Shown here piece after piece: positions 13,801-63,777 of a DNA stretch of 64,000 nt. The notes under the pieces are model-generated. The model worked only from the letters and a program-made list of their open reading frames with translations. It was not told the origin of the DNA and did no database searches. The first letter of the stretch is position 1, and each line of letters opens with the position of its first letter. The position numbers and the translations under genes are program-made. Source of the DNA: Parabacteroides merdae ATCC 43184 (GTDB lineage Bacteria > Bacteroidota > Bacteroidia > Bacteroidales > Tannerellaceae); contig NZ_CP102286.1 in assembly GCF_025151215.1 (NCBI RefSeq), positions 3,224,001 to 3,288,000 of the forward strand. The letters run 5' to 3'.

Positions 13801-14169
13801 TTCTGGCGAAGGGTTTATCAGAATAAGGTTATTTTCTGTAATTTCATAATCGACTCCTTCATTATTAAATAGTTGTCTTAACACAAACTCCACAGACTGT
13901 TCTCTCACTTGAACAGAAACCTTCTTATCTAAATTAATCTTTCCACTTTCATAAATAAATCGAAAATCAGTCTGATTTTCGATCAAATAAAGGATGTCCT
14001 TTATTGACTGATTCTGTACATTCAATGATAACTTTGTGGTCTGTGAATATACAGATGCAGAAATCTGCAAAGAAAATGCAATCAAAAAAACGACTGTCAA
14101 TTTCATAATAGATAATATCTTTTTAAGAGTCGAAGACTGGTCCAACTCTAACATATTAAAAAAATTCAT
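10867..14169 (-). CDS. SusC-like TonB-dependent transporter with STN domain (PUL A)
   Basis: This 1100-residue outer-membrane protein has a ~20-residue extension before a signal peptide beginning MKLTVVFLIAFSL. Domains in order are STN (about 45-115, KLSLNVQNQSIKDILYLI), carboxypeptidase-regulatory-like beta domain (about 138-215), the SusC TonB region DEVVVIGYGTAKKKDLTG, plug with VVDGIPMQ and IYGARGSNGVIIVTTK, and a beta-barrel ending in Phe (GVNLNF). The STN domain indicates a transducer that signals to the upstream FecR. The start at 14169 is the first ATG; an internal Met at residue 22 would also give a signal peptide. A predicted antisense RNA begins just upstream of the start codon. 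Confidence 0.95.
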   Translation of the reverse strand: MNFFNMLELDQSSTLKKILSIMKLTVVFLIAFSLQISASVYSQTTKLSLNVQNQSIKDILYLIENQTDFRFIYESGKINLDKKVSVQVREQSVEFVLRQLFNNEGVDYEITENNLILINPSPEQLKFAGQNKSQTRKKVTGVVRDQNGEPIIGANVVEKGTTNGTITDVDGRFSLEVYSKGTLLVSYIGFTSRELIIGNQSNIEIQLKEDMEALDEVVVIGYGTAKKKDLTGAITQIRAEEITQANSPNIGTALQGKIPVDIGGVWKPGNNPTIEIRGISSITGSNDPLWVVDGIPMQSSSVNLNPNDVQSIDVLKDASASAIYGARGSNGVIIVTTKRAEAGESSIKASYNGWVGFDKAAGKPNLMSADEFVDFKRIALANAGQDNSDEAMFDDIELNSWRNRTFTDWFDEVWGGTAFSTNHNVTISASSKKTATMLSLGYLDQGSLVDNAGYKRFNVNFNNTFKFSDRLKFTTAVLGSYSKNDALPDRIYHIYQLSPLAPVRDENGKLKLYPTPNESLVTNPLCEIQNNQNSTDEYGVIGSAALDWNIWDGLSYKFSVGLDYSNTNNGVYQGSDTRDRSGGAHAASFDSRTRLSSIIDNILSYNKEINTIHKIGAMAAFNVEQFQEKSVYLKGTDMYYDGLYYNLEAASTILDKKTTLSEWGIMSLMGRFNYTLLDRYLLTLTYRYDGSSRLSDKNKWAGFPSMSVAWRLSEEAFLQGARSRFLDNLKLRFSWGNTGNTNVDPYETLGKLSKTYYSWNETAAIGTIPTGIPNPDLKWEKTEEYNVGLDFSLFNSRLNGTIDWYQRTTKDLILKRQLPVTSGFSEIYQNIGSTRNRGVELTLNGDIIRNTEWRWNVGITFAKNKNEILDLYGDKKDDVGSNYFIGHSIRSYYLLDFIGVWQEDEAEEAAAYGAKPGYPKYKDIYNKEGDAPNINLNDDRYIISRDPKWIGSLNTSVSYKGFDFYMSMYTRQGVRALSDAHKQSSDDPVRYRGFRVNYWTPENRSNDYPAPAIKGTYTDFSNSDYFVKDVSFVRISNISLGYTLPKDFIQKFRMENAKVYININNPFVFTPFDGQDPQVGTDKKSYPSVTSYQLGVNLNF

Positions 14170-14182
14170 ATATTTGTATATT

Positions 14183-14266
14183 GATTGTTAGTTAATTATT
14201 AGTGCTTCCAACACTAATTTTATTATCAAACTCATAACGGGAGATGTGGCAGCATTTCCCGTTTTT
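14183..14266 (+). ncRNA. Predicted antisense small RNA opposite the susC leader (PUL A)
   Basis: On the plus strand TATATTTG at 14169-14176 matches the TAnnTTTG minus-7 box and shares its first T with the susC start codon. A transcript from about 14183 would contain a 7-bp stem-loop (ATTAGTG 14198-14204, CACTAAT 14212-14218). It would then contain a second hairpin (AACGGGA 14236-14242, TCCCGTT 14257-14263) running into a T-run to 14266, a plausible intrinsic terminator for plus-strand transcription. On the minus strand no T-run follows, so this is not a terminator for fecR. The size and place fit the DonS-type cis-antisense RNAs reported for Bacteroides PULs. No minus-33 box is evident. Confidence 0.45.
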
Positions 14267-14300
14267 GTGTATCCATGGCATTCTATTTCATAGGCAATTC

Positions 14301-15284
14301 TTATTTAGAGGTTATACTTATATGTTTTCCTTTTACATGATAACTTATATTACTTAGACGCGACAATGCATCCATAACGTCTGTTACAGTCTCTTCCTGT
14401 ATTACTCCGTTATAACGGATCTTTTCTCCCAATCCCGGTTGAAGCGTAATTTCCACATCATACCATCTTTCCAGATATTTACAAACAACCGACAGAGACA
14501 TATCTTCCATATATAACTTATTGTCCAACCATCCATAAGAATGGGACAAAACACCTTCTACCTGCTTAATCTTATCCGTCTTCTTATCGAAAACAGCTAT
14601 CTCTCCCGGCTTCATCCTCAACTTCTCGTTTCCTTTCTCCAGTTCGATACATCCCCCAACCAAAGAAGCCTGGATAACCGGATCATCAGCATACGCCTGC
14701 AAATTGAAAGAAGTCCCCCAAACTCTCACGTTTAAACCCCCGGCCACTTTAATGACGAAAGGATCTTTACTCTTGGACACATCAAAAAATCCTTCCCCCT
14801 GAAAATCAACTTCCCGCGTTTTTTTCTTCGGATCATAAGAATAAACGACTTCAGAACCGGCATTCAACTTGACCAAAGATCCATCCGGCAACATGATCTC
14901 CGAACGATTCCCATAATCGGCACTCATACTGACCAGAACCTCCGATCCTTTCTGAAAAGTTCCCATAAAAGACAAAGCTAACACTATCAACAAAGATGCG
15001 GCAACCCCGGAAGCCGTATATAACATGTTTTTCCAATATTTCCGAAGATATACTTTCTGTCGGTTTATCTTGTCAACCTTTTCCCAAGCAAGATCAGGAT
15101 CGAAAGCCTCAACTTCTGTATAACGATGAGATTCTTCCCAAATCTTTTTATACAAATTAAATTCTTTTCTATGGGACTCATCTTCGGCCAACCACTCAAC
15201 TAATACCGGATCAAGACGTTTTTCATCTTCACCGTCCAGTAAATAGTCCACGATATAGTCTTTTATAGTTTTTTGTTCTTCCAT
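14301..15284 (-). CDS. FecR-family anti-sigma factor (PUL A)
   Basis: This 327-residue inner-membrane regulator has an N-terminal cytoplasmic sigma-binding region (to about residue 85). A single membrane helix follows near residues 87-107 (NMLYTASGVAASLLIVLALSF). The periplasmic FecR domain includes ADYGNRSEIMLPDGSLVKLNAGSEV and the strand GEGFFDVSKSKDPFVIK. A C-terminal STN-like domain ends in ISYHVKGKHISITSK. By family knowledge it holds its ECF sigma factor inactive until the STN domain of the cognate SusC contacts it. It lies between sigma and susC, but a terminator-like hairpin separates it from the sigma gene. Confidence 0.93.
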   Translation of the reverse strand: MEEQKTIKDYIVDYLLDGEDEKRLDPVLVEWLAEDESHRKEFNLYKKIWEESHRYTEVEAFDPDLAWEKVDKINRQKVYLRKYWKNMLYTASGVAASLLIVLALSFMGTFQKGSEVLVSMSADYGNRSEIMLPDGSLVKLNAGSEVVYSYDPKKKTREVDFQGEGFFDVSKSKDPFVIKVAGGLNVRVWGTSFNLQAYADDPVIQASLVGGCIELEKGNEKLRMKPGEIAVFDKKTDKIKQVEGVLSHSYGWLDNKLYMEDMSLSVVCKYLERWYDVEITLQPGLGEKIRYNGVIQEETVTDVMDALSRLSNISYHVKGKHISITSK

Positions 15285-15316
15285 GAATCTTGCTTTTATT
15301 ATATGACACTATAAAT

Positions 15317-15339: not shown

Positions 15340-15347
15340 CGAAAAAA

Positions 15348-15881
15348 TTATATTCCTTTTAATTCCAAACATCGCCTCAGCTTCTGAAGCGAGATCCAGA
15401 TCTGATTTTTAATCGTTTTTATCGAGACATCGAGTTTTTCCGAGATTTCTTTTTGTTTCAATCCTTTTATCCGGTGCAGCAATAACACTTCTTTACAACG
15501 ACCGGGAAGATGATCGATACAGCTATAAAGAGCGATCCGAAATTCTTCAGACTCGACCCGGTCGTCTTCATATGATAACTGATCCTGAGTTTCCGACAGA
15601 TTATTAAAATAGACTTTTGAACGAAGATGATTCAATGCCAAATGTTTAGCCATCTTATAAAGATATCCGCCAACATTTTCTTTGATTTCAATCCTTTCCC
15701 GATTCTTCCATATATTCAGAAAAAGCTCTTGCACAATATCCTCCGTATCACTTTTATCCATGAGCAGGCTATATACATATTGACAAAGGCGACCATAATA
15801 ACGCTCAAACAGTTTATTATAACTGACGTAATCATTTCTCCTGATCGCCTCTATCAATCTTTCATCTGTGGTATTAGACAT
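15348..15881 (-). CDS. ECF-type RNA polymerase sigma factor (PUL A)
   Basis: This 177-residue protein has region 2 around residues 25-95 (YYGRLCQYVYSLL, SDTEDIVQELFLNIWKNRE, GYLYKMAKHLALNHLR). It has region 4 around residues 120-170 with the helix-turn-helix RIKGLKQKEISEKLDVSIKTIKNQI. It is of the Bacteroidetes PUL class of ECF sigma factors, released by FecR to turn on the adjacent susCD operon. It is the first gene of PUL A and has a TAnnTTTG box upstream, so its own basal expression may be by the housekeeping sigma factor. Confidence 0.93.
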   Translation of the reverse strand: MSNTTDERLIEAIRRNDYVSYNKLFERYYGRLCQYVYSLLMDKSDTEDIVQELFLNIWKNRERIEIKENVGGYLYKMAKHLALNHLRSKVYFNNLSETQDQLSYEDDRVESEEFRIALYSCIDHLPGRCKEVLLLHRIKGLKQKEISEKLDVSIKTIKNQIWISLQKLRRCLELKGI

Positions 15882-16935: not shown

Positions 16936-16954
16936 CTTTAAACTAATAAGAAAT

Positions 16955-20080: not shown

Positions 20081-23000
20081 TTAGAATGTTACATTAACTC
20101 CGAAATTATAACTACTGGGAACCGTATAATTAATATCAGGTTGTTCAGGTATAATATCAAACTCCGCTGCTCTATACAAATAACCTATATTTCTCATTTG
20201 CACATAGAAACGTAATTTCCTGATTGGGACCTTCTTTGACAGCAGATTCTCGAAACTATACCCTAATGTTATATCCTGAATTTTAATATGGTCGCCTTTC
20301 TGATAGCCATTAGAGGTACGATAGGTATCATAACCGCTCGCCTGATCCGCACGAGGATAACTATTTGTCGGATTATCCGGAGTCCAATAATCTACTGCCG
20401 GCAACCATCTCTGCCCGTCCATCGTGATATCATCATATGGAGCCGGCTTAACCAAATACCCCCATCTTGAGTTCAGATTGAAAGAAAAATCAAAATTCTT
20501 ATATTGAACATTCGCACCTAATGAAGCAATCCACTTCGGACGAACCTGCCCCAAGATTATGCGATCATCCGCAGCACTAATCGAACCATCTCCATTTTGA
20601 TCTTTAACCTTGATATCCCCTACCTTAGCATTATATTTAGCAGCAGCCTCTTCTTCACCCAACTGCCAGATACCAATTTTCTCATAATCATAGAACACAC
20701 CTAAAGGTTCTCCGATAAACCATTTATTATTAGGTAAATCTTCTCCACTGATCAAAGCTGTAATCTTTTCCCCGTTTCTGGATGCATTCAATGAAAAATC
20801 GACATTCAAATCTTTTGTCCTTACCGGATTATAATTTAGGTTAAACTCAACTCCTGAAGTTTCCGTCTCCCCGATATTCTGCCAAATATCATTGAAACCG
20901 GTAAATGAAGGAATCGTCCTCTTCATCAACAAATCACTCGTCTTTGTATTATAATACTCGACATAACCATTCAATTTATTATTGAATAATCCGAAATCAA
21001 CTCCTGCATTTACAGTTTTGGATATTTCCCAGCCAAGATCAAGATTCACAATCGAAGTTGGGCTATATACATAGAACTTATTAGATGAATCTTCTCCAAA
21101 CAGATAAGCATACTGTGACAAAGAAGCAAGTGTTTGATAGGGTGAAATGGCCGTATTACCAACAGTACCATAAGAGACACGAAGCTTAAGGCTATTAATC
21201 CAATTCACATTCTGCATAAAGCTTTCATCCTTCATGCTCCAACTGACTCCTCCTGAAGGGAAAACAGCCCATTGGTTTCCTTTTGCCAAACGAGACGAAC
21301 CATCTGTTCTGAATGCTATATTGAAATAATATTTATTCTTATAATTATAGCGCAAACGGCCTAAGACAGATGCCAGAGCCCAGTTTTCAAAACTACTTCC
21401 GATTTTTATATTTTCCGTGTTGGAACCTAAATTATGATAAGATGTATACTCTACCGGCTGGTTATCTCCGGATAAAGTACCTTTATCATATCTCCGGCTC
21501 TGCATTTCACCAACAAGGTCAACGACCAAATTATGATCTCCGAAACTATTATCATACGTAATAATATGGTTTAGTGTCCACTGATCATAATTATTATACT
21601 CTTTACCGGAGTTCGTCTTGACACCTTTGCCCTTGTATGAATCTTTACCATAAAAATACCCCCGCTTATAATCCGAGAAAATATAACCGAAGTTTGTATG
21701 CATACTCAGCCATTTATTTATCTTTATATGCGAAGTTAGATTAAGGTTCAATAAATTGCTTTGGGCATCATCTGCAAACTGTCCGGGTACATCATTTGCC
21801 AACGGGTTATAACCGGATGTGTTCAACGGATTCGGGAAATAATTAAGATCACCATTCTCCAAATACGGATCAGACAACGGTGTCATATACAATATTTCGT
21901 TATTGATTTTCTGGAATCCGGATATATTATTTCGTTTCAATCGAACAGTCGTACCCAATGTCCAGAAGTCTGCTAAATCATGATCAGCCGTCAATGTCAA
22001 ATTATAGTTCTCAGCATCATTCGTTTTATAGTAACCCTGTTCTTTATCATATTTAAATGATAACAGTAACCGAGTCTTCTCGCCACTATTGCTAATGCTC
22101 AGATGATAACTTTGTGTCAAAGCATTACGATACAATAAATCCTGCCAGTCGGTATAATTGCCATTTTTTATCATATCAAGTTCGGACTGAGTGAAAACAT
22201 CCTCATCTGTGAACGGGGTATCCCATCCGTGAGCATACCTGTATCCGTCACGCCTGAACTGTACATATTCTTCCCCAGACTGCAAAGGCATCATATGAGG
22301 AACGTTCAAACCGATATAAGAGTTAAAATTCACTTCACGATTCACTCCTTTCTTTCCTCTTTTAGTCGTTACCAAAATGACACCATTTGCGCCCATAGAA
22401 CCATAAATGGCGGAACTTGCTGCGTCTTTCAACACTTCAATTGATTCAATATCATAAGTATTTACACTCCCCAAGCTTCCGGGAATACCGTCCACTATGA
22501 TCAGCGGATTATTTCCTGCATTTAAAGATCTTGCTCCACGGATATAAATTTGCTGATCATCTCCTGCATATCGTGCCGACTGAATATCCAGACCGGCTAC
22601 TTTTCCCTGCAAGGCATCTTGGACATTGCTTGTTGAAGCAGCACTAATGGTCGATCCTTTGACTGTAGACATAGCACTTACAATATCTCTTTTTCTGGAT
22701 GTACCATAACCGATCACAACAATTTCATCCAAATTCTCCGTATTCTCAGCCAAAGAAATATTCAATATGTTCTTCCCGTCCACCCTTATCTCTTTGGTAT
22801 CATAACCGATATAGGAAACCAAGAGAACAGCCGAAGGAGAAATATCCAGACTATATTGACCATTCAAATCGGTAACAGTACCATTCGTCGTCCCCTTCTC
22901 CACAACATTCGCGCCGATGATCGGTTCTCCTTTTTCATCTTTGACAATGCCTGTGACTTTTTTTGTTTTGGAAGATGCCGGGGATTTTCTGGAAATAATG

Positions 23001-23317
23001 ATATGCCCGTTGCTGAATGTGACGGAACAGTTGGTGCCTTCCAGTAATTGTTCCAGGACGTTTTTGACGTTGTCGCCGGCCGGAACTTTCTTGATCACGC
23101 GTGAATCGTTGACATCTTGCGTGTTGTAATCTACGAAGAGTTTCGTTTGTTGTTCGATTTGCTTGAAAGCCGCCTTTAAGGTTAAATTACTGCCAGACAA
23201 ACGAACCTGTTGATTTTGAGCAAATACGAACGAGCTACCAAGAGACAGAGCTCCAATTATACATAGGCGGGAAAGCGTTTTTCCCGCTTTTATAGGTATT
23301 AGATTAGTTAATTTCAT
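20081..23317 (-). CDS. SusC-like TonB-dependent transporter with STN domain (PUL B)
   Basis: This 1078-residue outer-membrane protein has a signal peptide of about 33 residues ending VFAQ. The STN domain is at about 38-108 (NLTLKAAFKQIEQQTKLFVDY), the regulatory-like beta domain at about 118-195, then the TonB region DEIVVIGYGTSRKRDIVSA. The plug carries LIIVDGIPGSLGSV and IYGSMGANGVILVTTKRG, and the barrel ends NFGVNVTF. The STN domain makes it a signalling transporter for the upstream FecR. Codons about 10-17 lie in a strong hairpin (23267-23287). A predicted antisense RNA starts just upstream of the start codon. Confidence 0.95.
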   Translation of the reverse strand: MKLTNLIPIKAGKTLSRLCIIGALSLGSSFVFAQNQQVRLSGSNLTLKAAFKQIEQQTKLFVDYNTQDVNDSRVIKKVPAGDNVKNVLEQLLEGTNCSVTFSNGHIIISRKSPASSKTKKVTGIVKDEKGEPIIGANVVEKGTTNGTVTDLNGQYSLDISPSAVLLVSYIGYDTKEIRVDGKNILNISLAENTENLDEIVVIGYGTSRKRDIVSAMSTVKGSTISAASTSNVQDALQGKVAGLDIQSARYAGDDQQIYIRGARSLNAGNNPLIIVDGIPGSLGSVNTYDIESIEVLKDAASSAIYGSMGANGVILVTTKRGKKGVNREVNFNSYIGLNVPHMMPLQSGEEYVQFRRDGYRYAHGWDTPFTDEDVFTQSELDMIKNGNYTDWQDLLYRNALTQSYHLSISNSGEKTRLLLSFKYDKEQGYYKTNDAENYNLTLTADHDLADFWTLGTTVRLKRNNISGFQKINNEILYMTPLSDPYLENGDLNYFPNPLNTSGYNPLANDVPGQFADDAQSNLLNLNLTSHIKINKWLSMHTNFGYIFSDYKRGYFYGKDSYKGKGVKTNSGKEYNNYDQWTLNHIITYDNSFGDHNLVVDLVGEMQSRRYDKGTLSGDNQPVEYTSYHNLGSNTENIKIGSSFENWALASVLGRLRYNYKNKYYFNIAFRTDGSSRLAKGNQWAVFPSGGVSWSMKDESFMQNVNWINSLKLRVSYGTVGNTAISPYQTLASLSQYAYLFGEDSSNKFYVYSPTSIVNLDLGWEISKTVNAGVDFGLFNNKLNGYVEYYNTKTSDLLMKRTIPSFTGFNDIWQNIGETETSGVEFNLNYNPVRTKDLNVDFSLNASRNGEKITALISGEDLPNNKWFIGEPLGVFYDYEKIGIWQLGEEEAAAKYNAKVGDIKVKDQNGDGSISAADDRIILGQVRPKWIASLGANVQYKNFDFSFNLNSRWGYLVKPAPYDDITMDGQRWLPAVDYWTPDNPTNSYPRADQASGYDTYRTSNGYQKGDHIKIQDITLGYSFENLLSKKVPIRKLRFYVQMRNIGYLYRAAEFDIIPEQPDINYTVPSSYNFGVNVTF

Positions 23318-23330
23318 ATATTTGTATGTT

Positions 23331-23447
23331 TGAAAATTGAATATTAATTATTTTCAACGTTTTACGTTGAGTCCCAAAAAGTCACAATTCGGTTTCAAAC
23401 GCCGGAAAGAGGGATTTTCGCACTTTCGTTCTTTCCGGTTTTCTTTT
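23331..23447 (+). ncRNA. Predicted antisense small RNA opposite the susC leader (PUL B)
   Basis: TATATTTG at 23317-23324 on the plus strand is a minus-7 match that shares its first T with the susC start codon, as in PUL A. The predicted transcript has a first stem-loop (TCAACGT 23354-23360, ACGTTGA 23364-23370). It ends with a 9-bp stem (CCGGAAAGA 23402-23410, TCTTTCCGG 23430-23438) and a T-rich tail (TTTTCTTTT). It is the longest of the four candidates, at about 115 nt. No minus-33 box is visible and expression is not shown. Confidence 0.45.
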
Positions 23448-23473: not shown

Positions 23474-24469
23474 TTAATTTATAAATACAACATTTCCCTT
23501 TATCTTGAAACGAATGCCGATCAACTGCTGCAAAACAGCCAGCACATCCTCCAGGGTTTCATGCGGGGCAAACTTGACGTTGTAATACTCGTCCGCATAT
23601 TTCTGGGAATTATAATGGATCGTCACGTTAAACTTCCGTTCCAGCGAAGCCATCAGATGGCTGAAAGAAACATTCTCGTAAATCAGGTAGCCGCTACGCT
23701 CCATCTTATAAAGCAAAGCATCGACCGGCCGGACCGTTACCGTATGCGCCGCATGCGAATAAACCAGACGTTCGTTCGGCTTCAAGATAGCCGGCTGGTG
23801 TTCGCCTGCCCTTACATCCACTTTGACACTCCCCTCTTCCAGGATCGTGCTCGTGCAAGAATCAGCTGGATAGGAAGCTACTGTAAATACCGTACCCAAA
23901 GCCTGCACGTCCAGATAAGTCGTCTTCACAATAAAAGGTTTTTCCGTGTTTTTCCGAACCGTGAACGACGCTTCGCCAGTCAGGTAAACCGTACGGGTTT
24001 CCGTATCCGTAAAGTCTTTCGGGTAAACGAGCAGTGAACCGGCATCGACCCATACCTGCGAACCATCCGGCAAAATGACCTGCCGGCTCTCGCCATAAGG
24101 AACAAACAACTCTGCCATCTCTACATGCCGGACAGGTTGTAGGCGGTCCGTAACAAAAAAGGTCGCTGCTCCCGTCAATAGCATCAATGCAATTACCGCT
24201 GCATATTTGATCCACCCGCGATACATCGGGACAGTATTCCGACGGACCGGTTCAACCTGTAAATGTCTTTGCAGGGCATCCCAGTCTTCGCGGGTCTCAG
24301 CAGTCGCCTCTGCAGGCAAATGTTCCCAAAAGGCCTGCAACATATCGCTCTTTTCAGAAGCTCCGCCCTCCGCCCGTAGCCAGCGGCCGAACAGGACACG
24401 TCCCGAACGGGAGAAATGCTTTCCGAAATAAAGCTGTATGATTCGTTTTATATTATTATCATTTGTCAT
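23474..24469 (-). CDS. FecR-family anti-sigma factor (PUL B)
   Basis: This is a 331-residue protein. The start is placed at the ATG at 24469 (MTNDNNIKRIIQLYF); a TTG start 72 bp upstream would add residues that fit the family poorly. It has a cytoplasmic helical domain and one membrane helix near residues 88-108 (WIKYAAVIALMLLTGAATFF). The FecR domain reads VPYGESRQVILPDGSQVWVDAGS and GEASFTVRKNTEKPFIVKT. The C-terminal STN-like domain includes HETLEDVLAVLQQLIGIRFKIKGNVVFIN. It acts with the adjacent sigma factor and the STN domain of the downstream SusC. The codon choice is somewhat more GC-rich than in PUL A. Confidence 0.93.
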   Translation of the reverse strand: MTNDNNIKRIIQLYFGKHFSRSGRVLFGRWLRAEGGASEKSDMLQAFWEHLPAEATAETREDWDALQRHLQVEPVRRNTVPMYRGWIKYAAVIALMLLTGAATFFVTDRLQPVRHVEMAELFVPYGESRQVILPDGSQVWVDAGSLLVYPKDFTDTETRTVYLTGEASFTVRKNTEKPFIVKTTYLDVQALGTVFTVASYPADSCTSTILEEGSVKVDVRAGEHQPAILKPNERLVYSHAAHTVTVRPVDALLYKMERSGYLIYENVSFSHLMASLERKFNVTIHYNSQKYADEYYNVKFAPHETLEDVLAVLQQLIGIRFKIKGNVVFIN

Positions 24470-24622
24470 AAAATCCCATGCTTTATAATGGAGTCGGTTT
24501 GCTGTGGGAGTACACACAATCGAATATGCCTTTTTTCTCAACTTTCTTTCATTCTGTTTGGCTGATTTGATTTAAGTGTAGTTTGTTTTCGACAATGTCG
24601 AGATCATATTTGACAATACGGT

Positions 24623-25177
24623 TCAAGTGTGCAAAAGAAAAAATAGATAAAGGACTTTTCGAAGAATGGCAAGGGCGGCGGTCAAGTGATTTTCCACTGT
24701 CCGTTTACTGATATCGAGACGCTTGGCGATTTCGTCATTAGACAAACCTTCCTCACGGCTCATCCGGTATATTTTGCTTCGCTGGGGAGACATGCGCTCG
24801 ACCGTACGGTTGATGATCGATTGCAGCTCGCGGACGAACAAGGTTTCTTCCTCTGATTCGGCTTGGCAGGCATCCTGCAGGTATTCGTTCGTATATTTTT
24901 CCGAGACAATGAGACGGTCGAAATAGTCGTACACGGTAAAACGCGCCATCTGGAATAGATAGGAGGAAAAAGAACGGACATTTTTAAGTTTTTCACGGTC
25001 TTTCCACAACGAGAGAAACAAATCCTGGGCCATATCACGACTGACTTCCTTATCGTGTGTCAGACCGATAAGGAAATTTACCAACCGAGGTTGGTACTGG
25101 AAAAATAGATGCTCGAAAGCTTCCACATTTCCGGCAGCGATCTCCTTCAACTTATTTTGCTCCTCTGGTAATTCCAT
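24623..25177 (-). CDS. ECF-type RNA polymerase sigma factor (PUL B)
   Basis: This 184-residue protein has region 2 (FEHLFFQYQPRLVNFLIGL, SRDMAQDLFLSLWKDREKL, SYLFQMARFTVYDYFDRL). It has region 4 with the helix-turn-helix REEGLSNDEIAKRLDISKRTVENHLTAAL near residue 145. It should direct transcription of the PUL B susCD operon once released by FecR. It is divergent from the Fur-family gene, sharing a 108-bp intergenic region that contains the palindrome at 25226-25240. A 13-bp palindrome (TCGACAATGTCGA, 24589-24601) lies downstream, before fecR. Confidence 0.93.
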   Translation of the reverse strand: MELPEEQNKLKEIAAGNVEAFEHLFFQYQPRLVNFLIGLTHDKEVSRDMAQDLFLSLWKDREKLKNVRSFSSYLFQMARFTVYDYFDRLIVSEKYTNEYLQDACQAESEEETLFVRELQSIINRTVERMSPQRSKIYRMSREEGLSNDEIAKRLDISKRTVENHLTAALAILRKVLYLFFLLHT

Positions 25178-44815: not shown

Positions 44816-47800
44816 TTAAAAGATAATGTTTACACCGAAGTTTACGATTTTCAACGGAGGAAAATCATTGATTCTATCACTTTTTCCTTCTGGGTCCAGA
44901 CCTTGATACAAACTACTGAATGTAAGCAGGTTCGAGCCAGAAACATACAATCTCAGCTTTGTGATTCTCAGCTTGTCCCTGATATCCTTTGAGAAGGTAT
45001 AGCCCAACTGGGCGTTTTTCAGACGTAGATAATTTGTCTTTTTCAGGAAGAACGAGTTGTAGGTAGATGCATTCCGGTTATTGGCTGCTTCCAAACGAGG
45101 CATTTCGGCATTTCCATTCTGGTTCTCTTCCGTCCATCTGTCGCGGAAATGTACACCGGTGAAGGCCTCATAGCTTGGTCCTTCGATCCATTCCCCATAC
45201 ATCATACGATTCGCGCCGCTTGATCCCTGGAACAGCAAACTCAAATCGAAACCTTTATATTCGCCGCTGATATTCCATCCATATGTGAACTTAGGGATAT
45301 TGGAGGCAAAGATCTGACGGTCGTCCGGGTCGATCGTTCCATCGTTATTCGTATCGACCAGTTTCACATCGCCGGCATGAAGATCAGACATACCACGCGG
45401 GTCCGATTTATATTTGGCACGGTATTCTTCCAATTCCTGTTCGTTCGCGATCAAACCGTCTGCCTGATAGATGTAGAAAGCATTCAAAGGCGAACCGATC
45501 GTTTGAATATTATAACCGCTGATATTCTTGTCATCACCACCGCGGTCGATCCATTCGTTCTTGTTATAAGCCAAGTTGAAAGAAGTGTTGAATGTAAACT
45601 CTCCGAATGTTTTACGGAAACCGACCATAGCTTCTACACCTGAGTTACGAACCACTCCGGCATTTTGTTCAGGAGCATCCAGACCAATGAAATGAGGGAT
45701 ACCCAGTGCTAACAAAATATCTTTCGTATCTTTTGAGTACCAGTCCAATTCACCATAGATCGTGTTATTTAGGAAACCAAAGTCCAAACCGATATTAGTC
45801 TGTTCCACTGTTTCCCAAGTCACATCCGGATTCGCCATCTTCTTCTGGTAAACAGCAGAAACAAGGCTACCGTTCATGACCACATTCGAGGTGTTATACT
45901 GAGGCAGATACATGAAGGCATCGATACGCTCGTTACCGGTCTGCCCCCAGGAGGCTCTCAGTTTCAGATTATCCACAAATCCCAGATTTTTCATAAACCC
46001 TTCTTCCGAAATACGCCATGCAGCAGAGAAAGACGGGAAAACACCCCACTTATGGCCTTTAGCAAAACGGGAAGAACCATCGGTACGGATATTCGCTTCA
46101 AATAAATACTTATCCTTAAATCCGTAGTTTACACGTCCGAAGAAAGAGTTGATACCCCACTTGGTCGGATATCCTTCCGCAAACTGACTACCGGCCGAAC
46201 CTAAAGAAACGTCCGGTAAAGCATCAGAGATCAAATCTTTACGCTGAGCCATTGAATAATAGTTGCGGTAAGAGATTTGCTCCATACCGTAGAGCAACGC
46301 CAAATCATGGTCGTCGCCGAAACGCTTTTTGTAATTGGCCAGGAAACGAAGTGTCATCTGGTAACTGTTGTTACGTGAATCTTTTACACTATTCGGATTA
46401 TTACGTTGTGTAACCAGTTCACCAGTTTCGTTGTAATATTTATAATTCTTATAATGGATCTTTCTTCTGTCCCATGAACCGTTCAAAGAAGCCATACCCG
46501 TAAACACCAAATCCTTGATCGGTTCGAAATCGGCTTTTACCTGTCCATAAACCACATCCATATTATAACGGTCTTCCCCTACGACATCCAAATCCATAAG
46601 AGAGATGGCATTTCTATTCTGTTTATCCAAACGGTAATCGCCATTTTCATATCTGACCGGCGATGTGGGCTGCATGCTCCATACATCATACTGCACGCTA
46701 CCTAAAGATTCCGGCCATAGGCGGTCAACGTGACGATATGTTACGTCACTACTCACCTTCAACATTTTGCCAATGTTCAAATCTGTATTTACACGATAAC
46801 TATAACGCTGATATTCCGTATTTTTAACCAAACCAGGCTGATCTAGATAGTCAAACGAAACCAAATAACGTCCGACTTCACTACCACCCGTCAGGTTTAA
46901 TGTATGCTGTGTGATATAAGTAGGTTTATACACCTCATTCGCCCAGTTCAGATAAGAATGGTTATACGGATCATCGCCTCTTTCCGTTGCCAGAATATCA
47001 TCTTCCGAATATTTGATCGAACCACCGGAATTGACTAATGCTTCATTAACCATCGTCATATATTCGCGTGCGGAAACCTGCTCGGCTCTCACCGCCCGGT
47101 CCTGGAAACCGATTGTACCATCGTACGATAATTTCACTTTACCTTCCTTACCACGTTTGGTCGTTACTAGAATTACACCGTGAGCAGCACGTGAACCGTA
47201 GATAGAAGCAGATGCGGCATCTTTCAAAACAGAAATATTCTCGATTTCGGAAGAAGGAATCTGACTTAAAGACATTTCGATACCGTCCACCAATACCAGC
47301 GGTTTGGCATTGCCAGTCGTACCGACACCACGCAAGTAGATTTCAGGATCGTCACTACCTGGAGCACCACCACGGTCAACTACTGTGATACCGGGACTCA
47401 AACCCTGCAAAGCTTTTGTAGCATTTACCACTGTCATTTTATTGATTTCATCACCTTCCAGCTTTGTAACGGCACCAGTAGTCGTCACTTTACGCTGAAC
47501 ACCGTAACCGACAACAACAACTTCGCTCAATGCTTGGGTATCTTCAACCAACTGGATAGCCAATGTCGACTGGTTACCTACCTTTACTTCCTGCGTATTA
47601 TAACCGATATAGGATACCTGTACAACCGCACCCGGAGCGACTTCCAGTGTAAACTTGCCATCGATATCGGTGATAATACCGTTTGTAGTTCCTTTTTCAA
47701 TCACATTGGCGCCAATAATAGGTTCACCCAGATCGTCCGTAACGACACCCGTAATCGTTTTCTTCTGCTGAGCAATAACCGGAGCAGATGTTTCCTTTGC

Positions 47801-48163
47801 CTTATAACTCGACAGGACAATATAAGAACCTTTTTGGGAATAATTCAGTCCTAACTGGGTAGAGAGGTTATCCAAAACTTCCTTGATGGACTTACCGACC
47901 ATATTAACGGATATCCTTTTATTTACATTTACACCGGCATCATAAATGAAAAGATAATCCGTCTGCTTTTCAATAGTATTCAAATAATCTTTCACTGAAA
48001 GATTATCACCCTGCAGGGTGATCTTTTGCGATATCGCATTCTCTGCATGCAAGCAGAAAATGGCTGCAAATAATAACATATAGGTTATTCTCATAATCCT
48101 AAATAAATGTTTATGTCGTGATTTTAATAAGAGACAAAACCCCGACAAAGGTATTTTATTCAT
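44816..48163 (-). CDS. SusC-like TonB-dependent transporter with STN domain (PUL D)
   Basis: This is a 1115-residue outer-membrane protein. The ATG at 48163 (MNKIPLSGFCLLLKS) is chosen because further upstream there is only a non-ATG extension that would cover the leader. About 23 residues precede the actual signal peptide (MRITYMLLFAAIFCLHA), as in PULs A and E. Domains are STN (about 48-115), regulatory-like beta domain (about 135-212), TonB region SEVVVVGYGVQRKVTTTGA, plug with LVDGIEMSL and IYGSRAAHGVILVTTKRG, and a barrel ending NFGVNIIF. A predicted antisense RNA begins opposite the start codon. Confidence 0.94.
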   Translation of the reverse strand: MNKIPLSGFCLLLKSRHKHLFRIMRITYMLLFAAIFCLHAENAISQKITLQGDNLSVKDYLNTIEKQTDYLFIYDAGVNVNKRISVNMVGKSIKEVLDNLSTQLGLNYSQKGSYIVLSSYKAKETSAPVIAQQKKTITGVVTDDLGEPIIGANVIEKGTTNGIITDIDGKFTLEVAPGAVVQVSYIGYNTQEVKVGNQSTLAIQLVEDTQALSEVVVVGYGVQRKVTTTGAVTKLEGDEINKMTVVNATKALQGLSPGITVVDRGGAPGSDDPEIYLRGVGTTGNAKPLVLVDGIEMSLSQIPSSEIENISVLKDAASASIYGSRAAHGVILVTTKRGKEGKVKLSYDGTIGFQDRAVRAEQVSAREYMTMVNEALVNSGGSIKYSEDDILATERGDDPYNHSYLNWANEVYKPTYITQHTLNLTGGSEVGRYLVSFDYLDQPGLVKNTEYQRYSYRVNTDLNIGKMLKVSSDVTYRHVDRLWPESLGSVQYDVWSMQPTSPVRYENGDYRLDKQNRNAISLMDLDVVGEDRYNMDVVYGQVKADFEPIKDLVFTGMASLNGSWDRRKIHYKNYKYYNETGELVTQRNNPNSVKDSRNNSYQMTLRFLANYKKRFGDDHDLALLYGMEQISYRNYYSMAQRKDLISDALPDVSLGSAGSQFAEGYPTKWGINSFFGRVNYGFKDKYLFEANIRTDGSSRFAKGHKWGVFPSFSAAWRISEEGFMKNLGFVDNLKLRASWGQTGNERIDAFMYLPQYNTSNVVMNGSLVSAVYQKKMANPDVTWETVEQTNIGLDFGFLNNTIYGELDWYSKDTKDILLALGIPHFIGLDAPEQNAGVVRNSGVEAMVGFRKTFGEFTFNTSFNLAYNKNEWIDRGGDDKNISGYNIQTIGSPLNAFYIYQADGLIANEQELEEYRAKYKSDPRGMSDLHAGDVKLVDTNNDGTIDPDDRQIFASNIPKFTYGWNISGEYKGFDLSLLFQGSSGANRMMYGEWIEGPSYEAFTGVHFRDRWTEENQNGNAEMPRLEAANNRNASTYNSFFLKKTNYLRLKNAQLGYTFSKDIRDKLRITKLRLYVSGSNLLTFSSLYQGLDPEGKSDRINDFPPLKIVNFGVNIIF

Positions 48164-48176
48164 AACTTTGTGATAT

Positions 48177-48248
48177 TTAAAGATTAATACTTGTGTTAGA
48201 CATGTGTTAGTTGTAAGGCGGTGAATCTCGCACATTCATCGCCTTTTT
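48177..48248 (+). ncRNA. Predicted antisense small RNA opposite the susC leader (PUL D)
   Basis: TAACTTTG at 48163-48170 is a plus-strand minus-7 match sharing its T with the susC start codon. The predicted RNA of about 72 nt ends in a 12-bp stem with one G-U pair (AAGGCGGTGAAT 48215-48226, ATTCATCGCCTT 48234-48245), a 7-nt loop and a T-run to 48248. That is a convincing intrinsic terminator on the plus strand only. The first stem-loop seen in the other candidates is not clear here. Confidence 0.5.
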
Positions 48249-48312
48249 ACATTGTTTTTCGTGTTCCACTTCATTCCATAGGCATTTTCGTTTTTAATTT
48301 AAGGTTACACAT

Positions 48313-49263
48313 TTACTTTATATAGATAATCGTATTATCGTCGCTGCGGGAAAAAGTAAAACGCGTACTGCGTTGCAACACCTGCAAAATGAAATCCACC
48401 CCGTCCGAAACACGACATTTACCACTACATTTATAGTCATGCAGACTTTTGTTTTGGATTACAATACGGATATCATACGTCTTCTCAAAGCGTTTCATCA
48501 AATCGGCAAAACGGATATCCTCAAAGCAAATCAATCCCTCTTTCCAACGATAATCATCCAAGTTACGGATCGATTCCACCACCATTTTACCTCCCGTCCA
48601 TTCCGCTTTCTGCATCGGAGCAAGCCGGATGGAAGGACCAGGCTCCATTTTATTTGTTAACTCAATGGAACCTTCCAGCAGGGCAGCTGAAAATTCGCAA
48701 TCCGACTCCGCCTCATTCACCCGAACATTAAACTCCGTCCCCAAAACTTTTATATCACATTTCTTTGTCTGTACGACAAATGGATGTTCCACATCTTTAG
48801 ATACATCAAAATAGGCTTCACCTTTCAACGACACACGGCGGATATCCTCACTAAAAGAGGCCGGATAAGTCATTTCACTACAAGCATTCAGCCAGACATT
48901 CGTCCCGTCGGACAGGGTGAGGTTCGCCCGCTGCCCCGGAGGAACGACGATCTTGTTCATCTCCAATACAGGAGCCGGTTTTCCCACATTATTAGATATG
49001 TATAGGACAGACACTAGCAATACGGAAATTGCAGCAGCGATCTTCAGCGATTCTCTGATAACAAAAGGCAGGCTGAAACGGTGACCGGATTGCACCATGC
49101 TGCTATTTTTCGTCTTATGCAACAACAGCACATCAAAATATTTCCGCTCCCTTATCAGCTCTTCCCGATTCTTATTAGAAGCATCCACCCAATCGCAAAC
49201 AGCCTCTTCCTCTTCAAAAGAGGCTGTTCCTGCAAAAAATCGATGTAATACATTTCTGTCCAT
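48313..49263 (-). CDS. FecR-family anti-sigma factor (PUL D)
   Basis: This 316-residue protein has a short N-terminal domain with FFAGTASFEEEEAVCDWVDAS, then a membrane helix near residues 70-90 (SLKIAAAISVLLVSVLYIS). The FecR domain reads VPPGQRANLTLSDGTNVWLNACSEM and GEAYFDVSKDVEHPFVVQT. The C-terminal STN-like part has FADLMKRFEKTYDIRIVIQ and ends SRSDDNTIIYIK. Unlike the other loci, the gene before it is a glycosidase and not the sigma factor. Confidence 0.93.
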   Translation of the reverse strand: MDRNVLHRFFAGTASFEEEEAVCDWVDASNKNREELIRERKYFDVLLLHKTKNSSMVQSGHRFSLPFVIRESLKIAAAISVLLVSVLYISNNVGKPAPVLEMNKIVVPPGQRANLTLSDGTNVWLNACSEMTYPASFSEDIRRVSLKGEAYFDVSKDVEHPFVVQTKKCDIKVLGTEFNVRVNEAESDCEFSAALLEGSIELTNKMEPGPSIRLAPMQKAEWTGGKMVVESIRNLDDYRWKEGLICFEDIRFADLMKRFEKTYDIRIVIQNKSLHDYKCSGKCRVSDGVDFILQVLQRSTRFTFSRSDDNTIIYIK

Positions 49264-51385: not shown

Positions 51386-51940
51386 TCACATGAACAAAAC
51401 AATCGTCATATAATCCTTCAACTTCACTTTCAATATCTTCAATGCTTTGGATATGTGGAACTCCACACTCTTGACGGAAAGCGAGAAATAGGCAGCGATT
51501 TCCGGGTATGTTTTATTTTCATAGCGGCTCATGATAAAGATCCGGCGGGTTTTGTCGGACATCATTGCCAATGCCTCATCCACGAGCCGTCCGGCCTCCG
51601 AACTGAAAATTTCCTGAGGATCGCAGGCTTCAAGGGTGGCAATCCTCAGACTATTCACCCGTTGCTGATGCTCCTGGATACGTTGTTCCACATCTTCGCG
51701 GACACGAAGATGACGAAGGTAATTCAGACATTTATGTTTGATCGCTTCCAGGATATAGGCAGGAATATTCGAATCGGAAGAAAGAGAATGGCGATTTTCC
51801 CAATAATACATGATTCCCTCAACAGCAATATCTTCCGCTGCCGCTTCATCTTGCAGGTACGTATTGGCGAAACGCACAAACAATCCGTGGTAATCGGCAA
51901 ACAATTTATTAAAAGCTTTTATCTCCGAGGCTGTTTCCAT
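51386..51940 (-). CDS. ECF-type RNA polymerase sigma factor (PUL D)
   Basis: This 184-residue protein has region 2 (FNKLFADYHGLFVRFANTYL, AAEDIAVEGIMYYWENRHSL, YILEAIKHKCLNYLRHLRV) and region 4 (KTRRIFIMSRYENKTYPEIAAYFSLSVKSVEFHISKAL). It is the first gene of PUL D. In the other loci fecR follows directly; here the next gene is the six-hairpin glycosidase. The PUL E terminator lies 28 bp upstream, so it must use its own promoter, but no clear TAnnTTTG box was found. Confidence 0.93.
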   Translation of the reverse strand: METASEIKAFNKLFADYHGLFVRFANTYLQDEAAAEDIAVEGIMYYWENRHSLSSDSNIPAYILEAIKHKCLNYLRHLRVREDVEQRIQEHQQRVNSLRIATLEACDPQEIFSSEAGRLVDEALAMMSDKTRRIFIMSRYENKTYPEIAAYFSLSVKSVEFHISKALKILKVKLKDYMTIVLFM

Positions 51941-60195: not shown

Positions 60196-63100
60196 TTAGA
60201 ATGTAATATCCAAACCGAAGCTGTAAGTACGAACATTCGGGTAAGCCCATTGCAACTGAGATGGAGCACTTTCTGAACTTGAAATGTCAGTTTCCGGGTC
60301 AAGACCTGTATACGGAGTGATTGTAAACGGATTGTTCACGTCGAAATACACACGTACGTTAGACAGAATATGTTTGCTGGTCTTAATAGGAATATTATAA
60401 CCTAAAGTAATGTTACGACAACGGATGAACCAAGTCTTTTCATAATAATAGTCACCGACCCCATAGGCACTTTCAGTCTGGAAATATCCGGGTAACGTAC
60501 CGTTCGGATTGCTGGAGGACCAAAGATCCGATATTGAAGTAGGCTGATTATAACCACGGCGCAAGTCATTAACGTTATTACTCAACCATTGTTTCTTATA
60601 ACTTCCGGCAGAAAGCTTATCAAACTGTCCATAGAAATAAACATTGAGATCAAAGTTTTTCCAACGCAAAGTATTATTAAACCCAAATAAATATCCAGGG
60701 TCAGCAGATCCGTAAATCACTTTATCTGCATCATCCAACTTACCATCAGGCTTTCCGGTCTTCATCGGAATGCCATGCTTATCAACTTTAATGGAACCAT
60801 CGGATTCATAAACATATCCGTCAATATCTTTGATCTTCACCTGTCCGGGTAATGCACCGGGCATATGGTCGATCGTTTCACCTACTTGAACCAAACCATC
60901 TGACAAATAACCGGAATAGTAACGCATCCATCCGTTATACTCATCATAAGCATTCGGTTTCCATTTCGGATCACGTTCTTTCCACTTGTCACGATAGAGA
61001 GAGAATGTCAAGTCTGATGTCCATTCAAAATCCTTATTACGGATATTAGTCGTATTGATCGTCAATTCAAAACCCTGACTCTGAGTCTTACCCACGTTCG
61101 CAATGATTTTATTCACCTCGTTATAAGACAGCAAAGTCTGTTCATTCAACAAATCGGAAACGACTTTATGATAATATTCAGCAGTTACATTGACACGTCC
61201 ATCCAAGAAACCTAAATCCAAACCAACGTTCCATTCACGGGCTGTTTCCCAAGTCAAAACATTGTTTCCGAGTTGACTCAAATAGACACCATTGATCATG
61301 GAATTGCCAAAGATATTATTGTTACCTACTTTATAATAGCTATAAGCTTTATCTCCTACGTTGGAGTTACCTGTTTCACCATAGCTCAAACGTAATTTAC
61401 CATTAGACAATACATTTCTCAAAGGAGCCAAGAACTCTTCTTCCGTAAACCGCCATCCGGCAGCAACTGAAGGGAAGAATCCCCAACGTTCACCCGAAGC
61501 AAAATTTGAAGAACCATCGGCACGCAATGTCGCTGTCAGCAGATAACGGTCTTTAAACGTATAGTTCAAACGACCGAAGAAAGAAGCCATACGAGATTTG
61601 GTTGCACTCGATCCTACAGTCGGACGTTTTGCATTACCCGCGCCCAAGTTGTTATACAAGAAACCGTCTGTAATGAAGTCATTGCTTTTTCCTGAAAACA
61701 TTTCATATGTAAACAACTGATAAGAATGACCAACCAAAGCGTTGAAGTTATGGTCGCCTACCTGTTTCGTATAATTAGCAGTCAATTCCATCAAGTAGTC
61801 GGAATTATCACCCTGCGCAATAGAGGCCGCACCATTCTCACGTTGTCCATAAAGCGTTGTCGTTGGCAAATATTGTTTCAGTTTTTGATAGTTACGGTCG
61901 ATACCGAAATTTGCCTTCAACAATAAGCCATCTATCGGGCGAACTTCAAAAAATGCATTTGCCAATAAACGCTCTTGAGTCGTCTTATCTGTAATGTCCA
62001 GCAATGAAACAGGATTCGGCAAGAAAGAAGCATCGGAGTTCATCGAATAATTGCCATTCTCATCCCGAATGGGCAAAGCCGGATTAAACTGAGCCGCAGA
62101 AACCAAAATTCCGGCATTCTCATTCTGGCCACTACCTAAAGGCACGTTGTCATATTCATTACGTGTCGCCGTCAAATTAATCCCCATCTTTACATATTTG
62201 CTCAACTTCTGGTCCAAATTGGCACGAAGAGAGTATCTTGTCATTCCATTATTTTTAATCACACCATCCTGATTAAAATAGTTTCCAGAAACCAAGTACT
62301 TCGTATTATCGTTACCTCCTGTTATAGATAAGTTATGAGAAGTCTGAAAACCTAAACGGGATATTTCATCAAACCAATTCGTATTATTAGCCGGATTGGC
62401 AATCTGAGCATCTGTATAAGGCAATGTCAAAGCCGGCAGGGAAGGGTCTGTCGCCTCTTTTCCTCCATAAATGCCAACACCGTTCGTACGCATCCATTGT
62501 TCACGAGTATAATCGTTTGTTGCCCGCATAAAACCGGAAGCGTCCAACATCTCGTAAGATTTGGCTATCTGCTGTACAGAAGCCGATCCGGAATACTGTA
62601 CCTTAGCCGCCCCGCTCTTACCTCGTTTTGTCGTCACGATGATCACACCGTTACCGGCACGAGCACCATAAATAGCTGTCGAACTTGCATCTTTCAGCAC
62701 TTCAATAGATTCAATATCGTTTGGATTGATAGAAGCCAGGATATTATCTTTATTACCTCCTGAATATTGATTACCACTATCCAATGAACCCGGAGAATTC
62801 ACAGGAAAACCATCAATAATGATCAACGGGTCATTCCCCGCCTTATCAGAAGAAGCGGCACCGCGAATACGGAAAGTTGATTGTCCACCCGGCTGGGCAC
62901 TAATCGTGCTGACCTGCAAACCGGCAGCCTTACCAGCCAAAGCATGACTAACTGTAGACACTGTTGCCACAGGAGTATCATCCATCTTGACAGATGCAAC
63001 TGCACCTGTCATATCCTTCTTCTTCATCGTACCGTAACCGACAACAATCACTTCTTCCAAAGCCTGTGTATCTTCTTTCAACAGAACGTTGATCACATTC

Positions 63101-63675
63101 TGGTTCTTCACAACAATGTCCTGAGGGATGTATCCGATAAAGGAAATCTGCAAAGTCGCGTTAGCCGGAACTTCGATGGAAAAGTTTCCATCCATGTCGG
63201 TAGTAGTACCGTTAGTCGTACCTTTCTGGATAACGTTTGCACCGGCGACAGGGCCAAATGCATCGCTTACAGTACCGGTCACCTTACGATTCTGCTGCGT
63301 GGTGGCGGTAGAAGCCGGAGCTGCCTCGGAAGTCAGGACAATGTGACGATCCTTGATAGTGTATTTCAAACCTGTTTTAGCTGCAATAGCATCCAACACA
63401 GTCTGAATATTAGCATTCTTTTCATTGATAGAGATCTTTTCGTTCTTGTTGATCTCTTCCAGATTATAGAAAAACAGGAACTCGGACTGCTTTTCGATCT
63501 GTTTCAACACTTTTTCTAAAGTTTCATTCTTAGCTGAAACATTTAGAGTAGCAGTTTGCGCATAGGTGGAAGCAACCACGCTTGACAGACAAACAGCCAA
63601 CATTAACACGGTTAATTTCATGATTTTTATAGTTCTTTTCAGGTTAAGAGAAACAACTATACGTTGATTATTCAT
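60196..63675 (-). CDS. SusC-like TonB-dependent transporter with STN domain (PUL E)
   Basis: This is a 1159-residue outer-membrane protein. The ATG at 63675 (MNNQRIVVSLNLKRTIKI) is preferred to a GTG 36 bp upstream. About 18 basic residues precede the signal peptide MKLTVLMLAVCLSSVVAS. Domains are STN (about 42-112, KNETLEKVLKQIEKQSEFL), regulatory-like beta domain (about 130-207), TonB region EEVIVVGYGTMKKKDMTGA, plug with IIDGFPVNS and IYGARAGNGVIIVTTKRG, and a barrel ending FGLDITF. It is the largest SusC here. A predicted antisense RNA starts opposite the start codon. Confidence 0.94.
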   Translation of the reverse strand: MNNQRIVVSLNLKRTIKIMKLTVLMLAVCLSSVVASTYAQTATLNVSAKNETLEKVLKQIEKQSEFLFFYNLEEINKNEKISINEKNANIQTVLDAIAAKTGLKYTIKDRHIVLTSEAAPASTATTQQNRKVTGTVSDAFGPVAGANVIQKGTTNGTTTDMDGNFSIEVPANATLQISFIGYIPQDIVVKNQNVINVLLKEDTQALEEVIVVGYGTMKKKDMTGAVASVKMDDTPVATVSTVSHALAGKAAGLQVSTISAQPGGQSTFRIRGAASSDKAGNDPLIIIDGFPVNSPGSLDSGNQYSGGNKDNILASINPNDIESIEVLKDASSTAIYGARAGNGVIIVTTKRGKSGAAKVQYSGSASVQQIAKSYEMLDASGFMRATNDYTREQWMRTNGVGIYGGKEATDPSLPALTLPYTDAQIANPANNTNWFDEISRLGFQTSHNLSITGGNDNTKYLVSGNYFNQDGVIKNNGMTRYSLRANLDQKLSKYVKMGINLTATRNEYDNVPLGSGQNENAGILVSAAQFNPALPIRDENGNYSMNSDASFLPNPVSLLDITDKTTQERLLANAFFEVRPIDGLLLKANFGIDRNYQKLKQYLPTTTLYGQRENGAASIAQGDNSDYLMELTANYTKQVGDHNFNALVGHSYQLFTYEMFSGKSNDFITDGFLYNNLGAGNAKRPTVGSSATKSRMASFFGRLNYTFKDRYLLTATLRADGSSNFASGERWGFFPSVAAGWRFTEEEFLAPLRNVLSNGKLRLSYGETGNSNVGDKAYSYYKVGNNNIFGNSMINGVYLSQLGNNVLTWETAREWNVGLDLGFLDGRVNVTAEYYHKVVSDLLNEQTLLSYNEVNKIIANVGKTQSQGFELTINTTNIRNKDFEWTSDLTFSLYRDKWKERDPKWKPNAYDEYNGWMRYYSGYLSDGLVQVGETIDHMPGALPGQVKIKDIDGYVYESDGSIKVDKHGIPMKTGKPDGKLDDADKVIYGSADPGYLFGFNNTLRWKNFDLNVYFYGQFDKLSAGSYKKQWLSNNVNDLRRGYNQPTSISDLWSSSNPNGTLPGYFQTESAYGVGDYYYEKTWFIRCRNITLGYNIPIKTSKHILSNVRVYFDVNNPFTITPYTGLDPETDISSSESAPSQLQWAYPNVRTYSFGLDITF

Positions 63676-63688
63676 ACTTTTGAATGTT

Positions 63689-63777
63689 TTTAAGATTAAA
63701 CATGATCCCACGGCAATGGGAGTTTAATTGTTCACACTTTCAGAAGAGAAGATCCGGCAAGATTTTCTCTTCTTTTT
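63689..63777 (+). ncRNA. Predicted antisense small RNA opposite the susC leader (PUL E)
   Basis: TACTTTTG at 63675-63682 on the plus strand is a minus-7 match sharing its T with the susC start codon. The predicted ~89-nt RNA has a first stem-loop TCCCA/TGGGA (63706-63721). It ends with a 13-bp stem with one G-U pair (63742-63754 with 63761-63773), followed by TTTTT to 63777. Both loops have the sequence CGGCAA. This is the strongest of the four candidates structurally. Confidence 0.5.

Follow-up and report, generated by a model that had tools for sequence, protein, structure and literature searches.

Short cis-antisense RNAs of the DonS class, 78–128 nt in length, lie opposite susC homologs in Bacteroides, according to the available text of PMC7366714. 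Repression has been reported for DonS in Bacteroides fragilis, and antisense transcripts have been detected on Northern blots in Bacteroides thetaiotaomicron (PMC7366714, PMC10994844). For the latter species the accessible portions of these papers count ten antisense RNAs oriented like DonS, of which Northern blots validated five, with a sigma-ABfr promoter at 52% of cis-antisense RNAs (PMC7366714), and 32 antisense RNAs associated with polysaccharide utilization loci (PULs) (PMC10994844). Here, we analyze a 64-kb piece (the window, whose coordinates are used throughout) of the 4.38-Mb single-contig genome of Parabacteroides merdae ATCC 43184, which contains five PULs, A to E, with SusC-type receptors. 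We estimate at roughly 0.8 the probability that the susC leaders of PULs A, B, D, and E each encode a short, terminated, plus-strand cis-antisense RNA of the DonS kind, as a sequence-only reading of this DNA had proposed. That reading treated DonS-type RNAs as a published class placed opposite susC homologs, which is borne out by the available text of PMC7366714 and PMC10994844.

The defining feature of these leaders is a plus-strand octamer, TAnnTTTG, a candidate −7 box whose first T lies opposite the A of the susC start codon at all four loci (Table 1), exactly where the sequence-only reading had placed it. A stem with a T-rich tail on the same strand starts 52–85 nt past the box start and ends before the fecR stop codon, which gives each predicted RNA a defined 3′ end at an intrinsic terminator. 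The earlier description of these hairpins was right about strand, tail, and position relative to fecR, but in place of its distance of 70–120 nt, the stems end 82–121 nt after the start of the box. With the 5′ end taken from the box and the 3′ end from the terminator, the four predicted RNAs fold with z-scores of −3.7 to −5.1 (opposite strand, −1.4 to −4.3). At PUL D the susC start is that at 48163 and not that of a longer open reading frame (ORF) at 48235, since the N terminus from 48163 is kept in orthologs. PUL C had been named as the exception, and its susC (ATG at 35011, 48-nt gap) indeed has no box, nor was a terminator found there.

The register of the box is well above chance, as had been argued from the four loci alone. 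In the whole genome, 30 FecR_C loci were found, one of which (L030) corresponds to the STN part of a susC gene and was removed; 13 of the remaining 29 carry the box at offset 0, whereas 300 other offsets hold 4 in total. A set of 30 susC loci without a FecR_C match was reduced to 27 by removing three without an identified ATG, and only one of these (L053) is boxed. Its product has an extended N terminus resembling that of FecR-linked susC, and no fecR lies directly upstream. Among 163 ORFs of at least 150 amino acids in the window and ten sampled stretches (195 kb), the box is present at the ATG of six, namely five susC genes and aroA.

Box and terminator are tightly linked. We assembled 187 fecR–susC leaders, of which 167 have a gap of 60–300 nt and 133 remained after near-duplicates were removed: 25 from this genome, 60 from a named set, and 48 from relatives. 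The named set comprises the best 80 of 595 candidates and is thus not random; three loci of the own genome (L019, L020, and L026) were left out of the pool for a tiny gap or the lack of a downstream susC. The box occupies offset 0 in 84 of the 133 leaders, compared with 21 boxes over 240 other offsets. An antisense-strand terminator of −8 kcal/mol or better is present in 82/84 boxed versus 23/49 unboxed leaders (Fisher p = 4.6e-12), and the same holds separately for the own genome (13/13 versus 2/12) and for the named set (33/33 versus 16/27). A stricter first scan of the own genome had given 11/13 boxed and 2/16 unboxed. Sense-strand terminators occur in 6/84 boxed and 6/49 unboxed leaders; among the own susC leaders without FecR, 7/27 reach −8 kcal/mol on the antisense strand and 4/27 do so on the sense strand.

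The hairpin itself reveals which strand it serves. For each boxed leader the best inverted repeat was chosen with a strand-blind score, and 81 leaders were retained, three of the 84 falling below the hairpin score. The non-Watson-Crick pairs of these stems comprise 83 that read as G-U on the antisense strand and 12 that would do so on the sense strand (p = 3e-14), and a T-run follows the hairpin in 70/81 cases on the antisense strand and in 0/81 on the sense strand. When near relatives are excluded, the bias persists at 40 to 7 (own and named leaders, 45 of 46 boxed). This preponderance of antisense G-U pairs suggests that the hairpin is kept as an antisense RNA. In addition, among 11 sequences of PUL D relatives, seven terminator pairs have changed on both sides (23 cells), a level reached by 0 of 500 shuffles.

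Box and terminator are also kept in relatives of PULs A, B, D, and E, as the sequence-only reading would require of real terminators. Counting the window's own loci and paralogs, the box is present in 13 of 15 loci from the PUL A fecR search, 25 of 30 from the PUL D search, and 28 of 36 from the PUL E and PUL B searches (39 loci, three without a usable downstream ORF). One PUL D leader (L088, from relative G020 of the same genus) is identical over 218 nt to a leader of P. massiliensis (L155). In the PUL E set, the terminators of the seven boxed loci all lie between −15.3 and −15.8 kcal/mol. Of the four loci lacking a strict box, two (L123 and L127) have no terminator, and the others reach −3.2 (L126) and −9.0 kcal/mol (L124). 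This pattern fits a joint decay within one lineage of PUL E, where weakening or loss has affected box and terminator alike.

Beyond close relatives, the box was found in 37 of the best 80 of 595 named FecR loci. These include records of Parabacteroides, Bacteroides, Mediterranea, Tannerella, and Prolixibacteraceae, and also of Flavobacterium, Flagellimonas, Arenibacter, Mucilaginibacter, Pedobacter, Chitinophaga, and Cytophagales. A separate sample of 60 susC genes with a near-complete N terminus, found with the SusC model alone in six genomes of other Bacteroidales families, was hand-picked from the top of the matches listed (two, L283 and L301, are cut by contig ends). Using at least 95 amino acids before the start of the SusC model as a proxy for the STN type, we found the strict box in 4/16 genes with a long N terminus and in 0/44 with a shorter one. 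An antisense terminator of −10 kcal/mol or better was present in 10/16 and 3/44, respectively. The arrangement therefore goes with the transducer type of SusC. The presence of the box in Flavobacterium, Pedobacter, Mucilaginibacter, Chitinophaga, and Cytophagales suggests an old device, and a box anchored on the start codon offers a simple sequence rule by which many susC antisense partners could be found without RNA sequencing.

Several observations weigh against this interpretation. No conserved −33 element (TTTG or TTG) was seen upstream of the box in the 84 boxed leaders, so that, of the promoter expected for a DonS-like RNA, only the −7 element is supported, being both present and conserved. 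The 133 leaders include diverged orthologs and are hence not fully independent. The antisense terminator in 23 of the 49 unboxed leaders is accompanied in some cases by near-boxes, judged by eye, and is otherwise unexplained. One susC without FecR (L047) has a strong antisense terminator (−19.8 kcal/mol) and no strict box, with a shortened one, CATCTTTG, opposite its ATG. In the other families, 6 of the 12 unboxed leaders of the long-N-terminus type have a terminator, and the strict octamer is thus no full rule; near-boxes such as TAnnTTTA, seen by eye in several of the 16, indicate that it undercounts. The sense strand also folds well at PUL A and PUL E (z of −3.8 and −4.3). Among 13 PUL A orthologs only one terminator pair has changed on both sides, a level reached by 170 of 500 shuffles. 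There is no covariation signal in this set because the stem hardly varies: 96.4% of cells pair, and the variation consists of A-U to G-U changes on the antisense strand. Finally, both correlation and anti-correlation of antisense RNA with susC are reported for B. thetaiotaomicron in the available text of PMC10994844, and repression is thus not universal.

Taken together, the sequences support the box, the terminator, their linkage, their conservation, and selection on a plus-strand RNA. The antisense interpretation offered by the sequence-only reading gains from the joint loss in PUL E, the compensatory changes in PUL D, and the plus-strand character of hairpin variation. The predicted transcripts are very probably real antisense RNAs, and by analogy with DonS they probably repress their own susC; most likely they would be constitutive, act in cis, and keep leaky susC mRNA silent. 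For gut Bacteroidales, PULs controlled by a sigma/anti-sigma pair are a main means of sensing glycans from host and diet. In the model we favor, the susC start codon is overlain by the −7 element of a promoter of the housekeeping (sigma-ABfr) type. The RNA would accordingly begin ∼14 nt upstream of the susC ATG, extend back across the 5′ leader, and end at the terminator, ahead of fecR. Made by the housekeeping polymerase while the sigma/anti-sigma pair is off, it would pair with susC leader RNA arising from leakiness or fecR read-through. The start codon would be left unpaired and the ribosome landing zone upstream of it covered, and pairing would either block translation or trigger cleavage of the duplex. 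Strong sense transcription driven by the extracytoplasmic function (ECF) sigma factor would titrate the antisense RNA and run over its promoter, creating a threshold switch.

The alternative that survives best accepts antisense transcription but assigns it a role at the DNA level, with convergent polymerases interfering, or the terminator shielding the sense promoter and fecR, and the RNA a by-product. Termination before fecR would suit such a role, as would the stretch between box and terminator, which by eye varies freely between paralogs, and the mechanism of DonS is called unknown in the available text of PMC11697453. However, the PUL A and PUL D sets both retain another stem-loop, located upstream of the terminator. 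This suggests that the RNA does more than halt polymerase, and we regard the DNA-level role as unlikely. That the RNAs work in trans on other PULs, by way of similar terminator loops, is more doubtful still. Two loops recur in de-duplicated boxed leaders from unrelated PULs (GTGGGGAC seven times and GTTGCAGC five times), possibly as a shared contact, but the likeness may reflect only stable terminator loops or descent. Very improbable is a hairpin belonging to the sense susC leader, as a riboregulator or stability element, with an incidental plus-strand T-run: the sense-strand folding at PULs A and E would agree with it, whereas the G-U bias, the one-sided T-runs, and the co-occurrence of the hairpin with an antisense promoter box do not. 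Least credible of all, and countering the earlier caution on this point, is that the octamer is mere susC start-codon context (AT-rich, with T at −1) and no promoter, because although unboxed leaders too favor T at −1 and AAA at −4 to −6 and the aroA ATG also bears the octamer, such context does not explain the box frequency at susC ATGs given the non-FecR, 163-ORF, and other-family controls, and it predicts no terminator.

The same leaders contain a second feature, which is more surprising than the antisense RNAs. By far the top 7-mer in the 133 leaders is GCCTATG, present in 56 against 0.42 expected when counting from the fecR stop, and in 58 when counting from 30 nt before it. The ATG within this motif opens a reading frame that meets a stop within seven codons in 53 of the 58 leaders, compared with 19 and 20 in the other two frames; for own and named leaders only, the figures are 29/30 versus 9 and 10. 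To rule out a fixed nucleotide motif, 21 leaders with a stop at codon 0 or 1 were excluded, and stop density over codons 2–7 was still 0.194 in frame, versus 0.027 and 0.036. GCCTATG sites elsewhere in the 195 kb show no frame preference (3, 5, and 3 of 14), nor do 49 ordinary genes show a preferred frame for early stops (16, 22, and 11). In the 62 leaders that lack GCCTATG and have another ATG 65–165 nt before susC, an early in-frame stop occurs in 44, versus 22 and 25 in the other frames. A conserved short ORF in these leaders is thus well supported by frame-specific stops.

Other counts run against this view or limit its generality. The first ATG of 25 own susC leaders without FecR shows no frame preference (13, 9, and 14), and one-mismatch variants of GCCTATG in 11 leaders show no clear one (9, 6, and 6). 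A genome-wide search with GCCTATGNNNTRR gave 37 matches against 54 for the reversed control, so two-codon ORFs are not enriched genome-wide. True stops are present at 22 of the 37 sites; six of these lie in susC leaders, and 12 of the other 16 lie inside open frames of at least 150 codons. For the sample from the other families, GCC[TA]ATG ORFs no longer than 9 amino acids occur in 3/16 leaders of the long-N-terminus type and 1/44 of the short type, below the own genus. Six of the 27 own susC leaders without FecR contain GCCTATG, each with an ORF of 2–5 codons. One of these is L053 (G000:C1:3033500-3035900), in which box, antisense terminator, and GCCTATG mini-ORF are all present. We also considered GCCTATG as the −10 element of an ECF promoter and rejected this on account of the frame-specific stops, the variable spacing to an upstream TAAYC motif, and the five leaders without FecR, besides L053, that carry it.

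Boxes are found in 41 of the 58 leaders with GCCTATG and in 43 of the 75 without, so the motif and the antisense box are two separate features. We give even odds to the proposal that many SusC-transducer mRNAs of Bacteroidota have a two-part leader, in which a translated minimal ORF adjoins the footprint of a start-codon-anchored antisense RNA. The ORF part would often consist of GCCUAUG, zero to seven codons, and a stop (a bare AUG-stop included), ∼70–165 nt before the susC AUG, and the antisense RNA would usually end just short of it, as predicted at PULs A, D, and E; at PUL B the ORF overlaps the hairpin. Such an ORF might idle ribosomes or protect the 5′ end and, with the antisense RNA, control glycan import as a gate at the level of translation. 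Its location within the susC message is speculative, as is any joint action with the antisense RNA. A literature search that covered few subscription papers returned no report of a minimal upstream ORF in susC leaders. If translated, it would add an unrecognized level of regulation in a phylum where Shine-Dalgarno sequences are little used.

Leaders of the PUL B type (the window's own and L149, L153, L141-L143, L147, L148, and L133) have an AGGAGG-like stretch near the fecR stop (GAAAGGAGGTGAT in L149), and in several of them an ORF of ∼20 codons follows and overlaps the hairpin. In this phylum, sequences resembling Shine-Dalgarno sites are uncommon. At the aroA start (6261–6300), TACTTTTG stands on both strands as a near-palindrome, possibly the gene's own promoter facing an antisense copy; the sequence-only reading saw no terminator at this site. 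Two susC genes of this genome (G000:C1:2368321-2371299 and 215097-218057) have one internal stop each in the search table, and at L020, a FecR gene, the next long ORF is unlike susC and integrase-like by eye. Pfam matches identify SusC-type receptors in PULs A to E, with STN above the cut-off in A, C, D, and E, and also genes for FecR and ECF sigma factors in A to D.

Table 1. Genes, boxes, terminators, predicted RNAs, and upstream ORFs of the five PULs (window coordinates)
PUL	Feature	Coordinates	Strand	Remarks
A	susC-type TonB-dependent receptor with STN domain	10867–14169	-	
A	Antisense −7 box TATATTTG	14169–14176	+	First T opposite A of susC ATG
A	Predicted cis-antisense RNA	14183–14268	+	∼86 nt; z −4.6
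A	Intrinsic terminator stem-loop	14236–14263	+	T-rich tail after
A	Minimal upstream ORF ATG AAA TAG (MK*)	14283–14291	-	GCCTATG context to 14295
A	FecR anti-sigma factor	14301–15284	-	
A	ECF sigma factor	15348–15881		
B	susC-type receptor	20081–23317	-	STN match below Pfam cut-off
B	Antisense −7 box TATATTTG	23317–23324	+	At susC ATG; overlapping second box TATGTTTG at 23325
B	Predicted cis-antisense RNA	23331–23442	+	∼104–112 nt by box used; z −3.7
B	Intrinsic terminator stem-loop	23402–23438	+	Long internal loop, then TTTTC
B	Upstream ORF, 23 codons	23382–23453	-	Behind AGGAG-like stretch; overlaps hairpin
B	fecR	23474–24541		
B	ECF sigma factor	24623–25177		
C	susC	31790–35011	-	Negative case
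C	fecR	35060–36058		
C	ECF sigma factor	36155–36769		
D	susC-type receptor with STN	44816–48163	-	
D	Antisense −7 box TAACTTTG	48163–48170	+	At susC ATG
D	Predicted cis-antisense RNA	48177–48249	+	∼73 nt; z −5.1
D	Intrinsic terminator stem-loop	48215–48245	+	T-rich tail; compensatory changes in relatives
D	Minimal upstream ORF ATG GAA TGA (ME*)	48271–48279	-	GCCTATG context to 48283
D	fecR	48313–49263		
D	ECF sigma factor	51386–51940		662-aa ORF without Pfam match between fecR and this gene
E	susC-type receptor with STN	60196–63675	-	
E	Antisense −7 box TACTTTTG	63675–63682	+	At susC ATG
E	Predicted cis-antisense RNA	63689–63777	+	∼89 nt; z −4.4
E	Intrinsic terminator stem-loop	63742–63773	+	Then TTTTGGTTT
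E	Minimal upstream ORF ATGAACACCAGTTAG (MNTS*)	63787–63801	-	
E	fecR	ends ∼63834		FecR_C match; continues beyond window edge

By placement and predicted size, these candidates resemble the DonS class. No Rfam family matches the window at gathering level, and a search of 14 of the 80 named loci (64 kb) gave nothing at E 0.05 or better. The only match up to E 5 in window positions 14000–14400 is to RF04184 (BTnc060), covering 14096–14266 of the plus strand as far as the terminator end; membership was rejected at 23.3 bits (gathering threshold 228.9; E 0.15). The FopS small RNAs, with RbpB, bind close to the start codon and thereby reduce SusC translation, as described in the available text of PMC11697453. 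By that description they are 14 paralogous RNAs with a shared seed, which sets them apart from the present candidates, each complementary to its own leader by position. For Flavobacterium psychrophilum, the accessible portion of a transcriptome study lists 287 antisense regions overall and refers to the B. fragilis example, with no description of susC antisense RNAs there (PMC9723704).

Like DonS, each of the four candidates is predicted to be a short RNA that lies antisense to the 5′ portion of a susC homolog. Their predicted lengths of 73–112 nt, both ends being placed from sequence, compare with 78–128 nt for the class (available text of PMC7366714), with A, B, and E in range and D slightly below. 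The DonS descriptions concern B. fragilis and B. thetaiotaomicron, whereas the RNAs predicted here belong to Parabacteroides. The exact placement of the −7 box at the start codon, the preference for susC of the long-N-terminus or FecR type, and the spread to Flavobacterium, Pedobacter, Mucilaginibacter, Chitinophaga, and Cytophagales are all absent from the descriptions in the available text of PMC7366714 and PMC10994844. Set against those descriptions, the four predicted RNAs are probably further members of the known DonS class, for which the present sequences give a more precise anatomical rule and a broader distribution.

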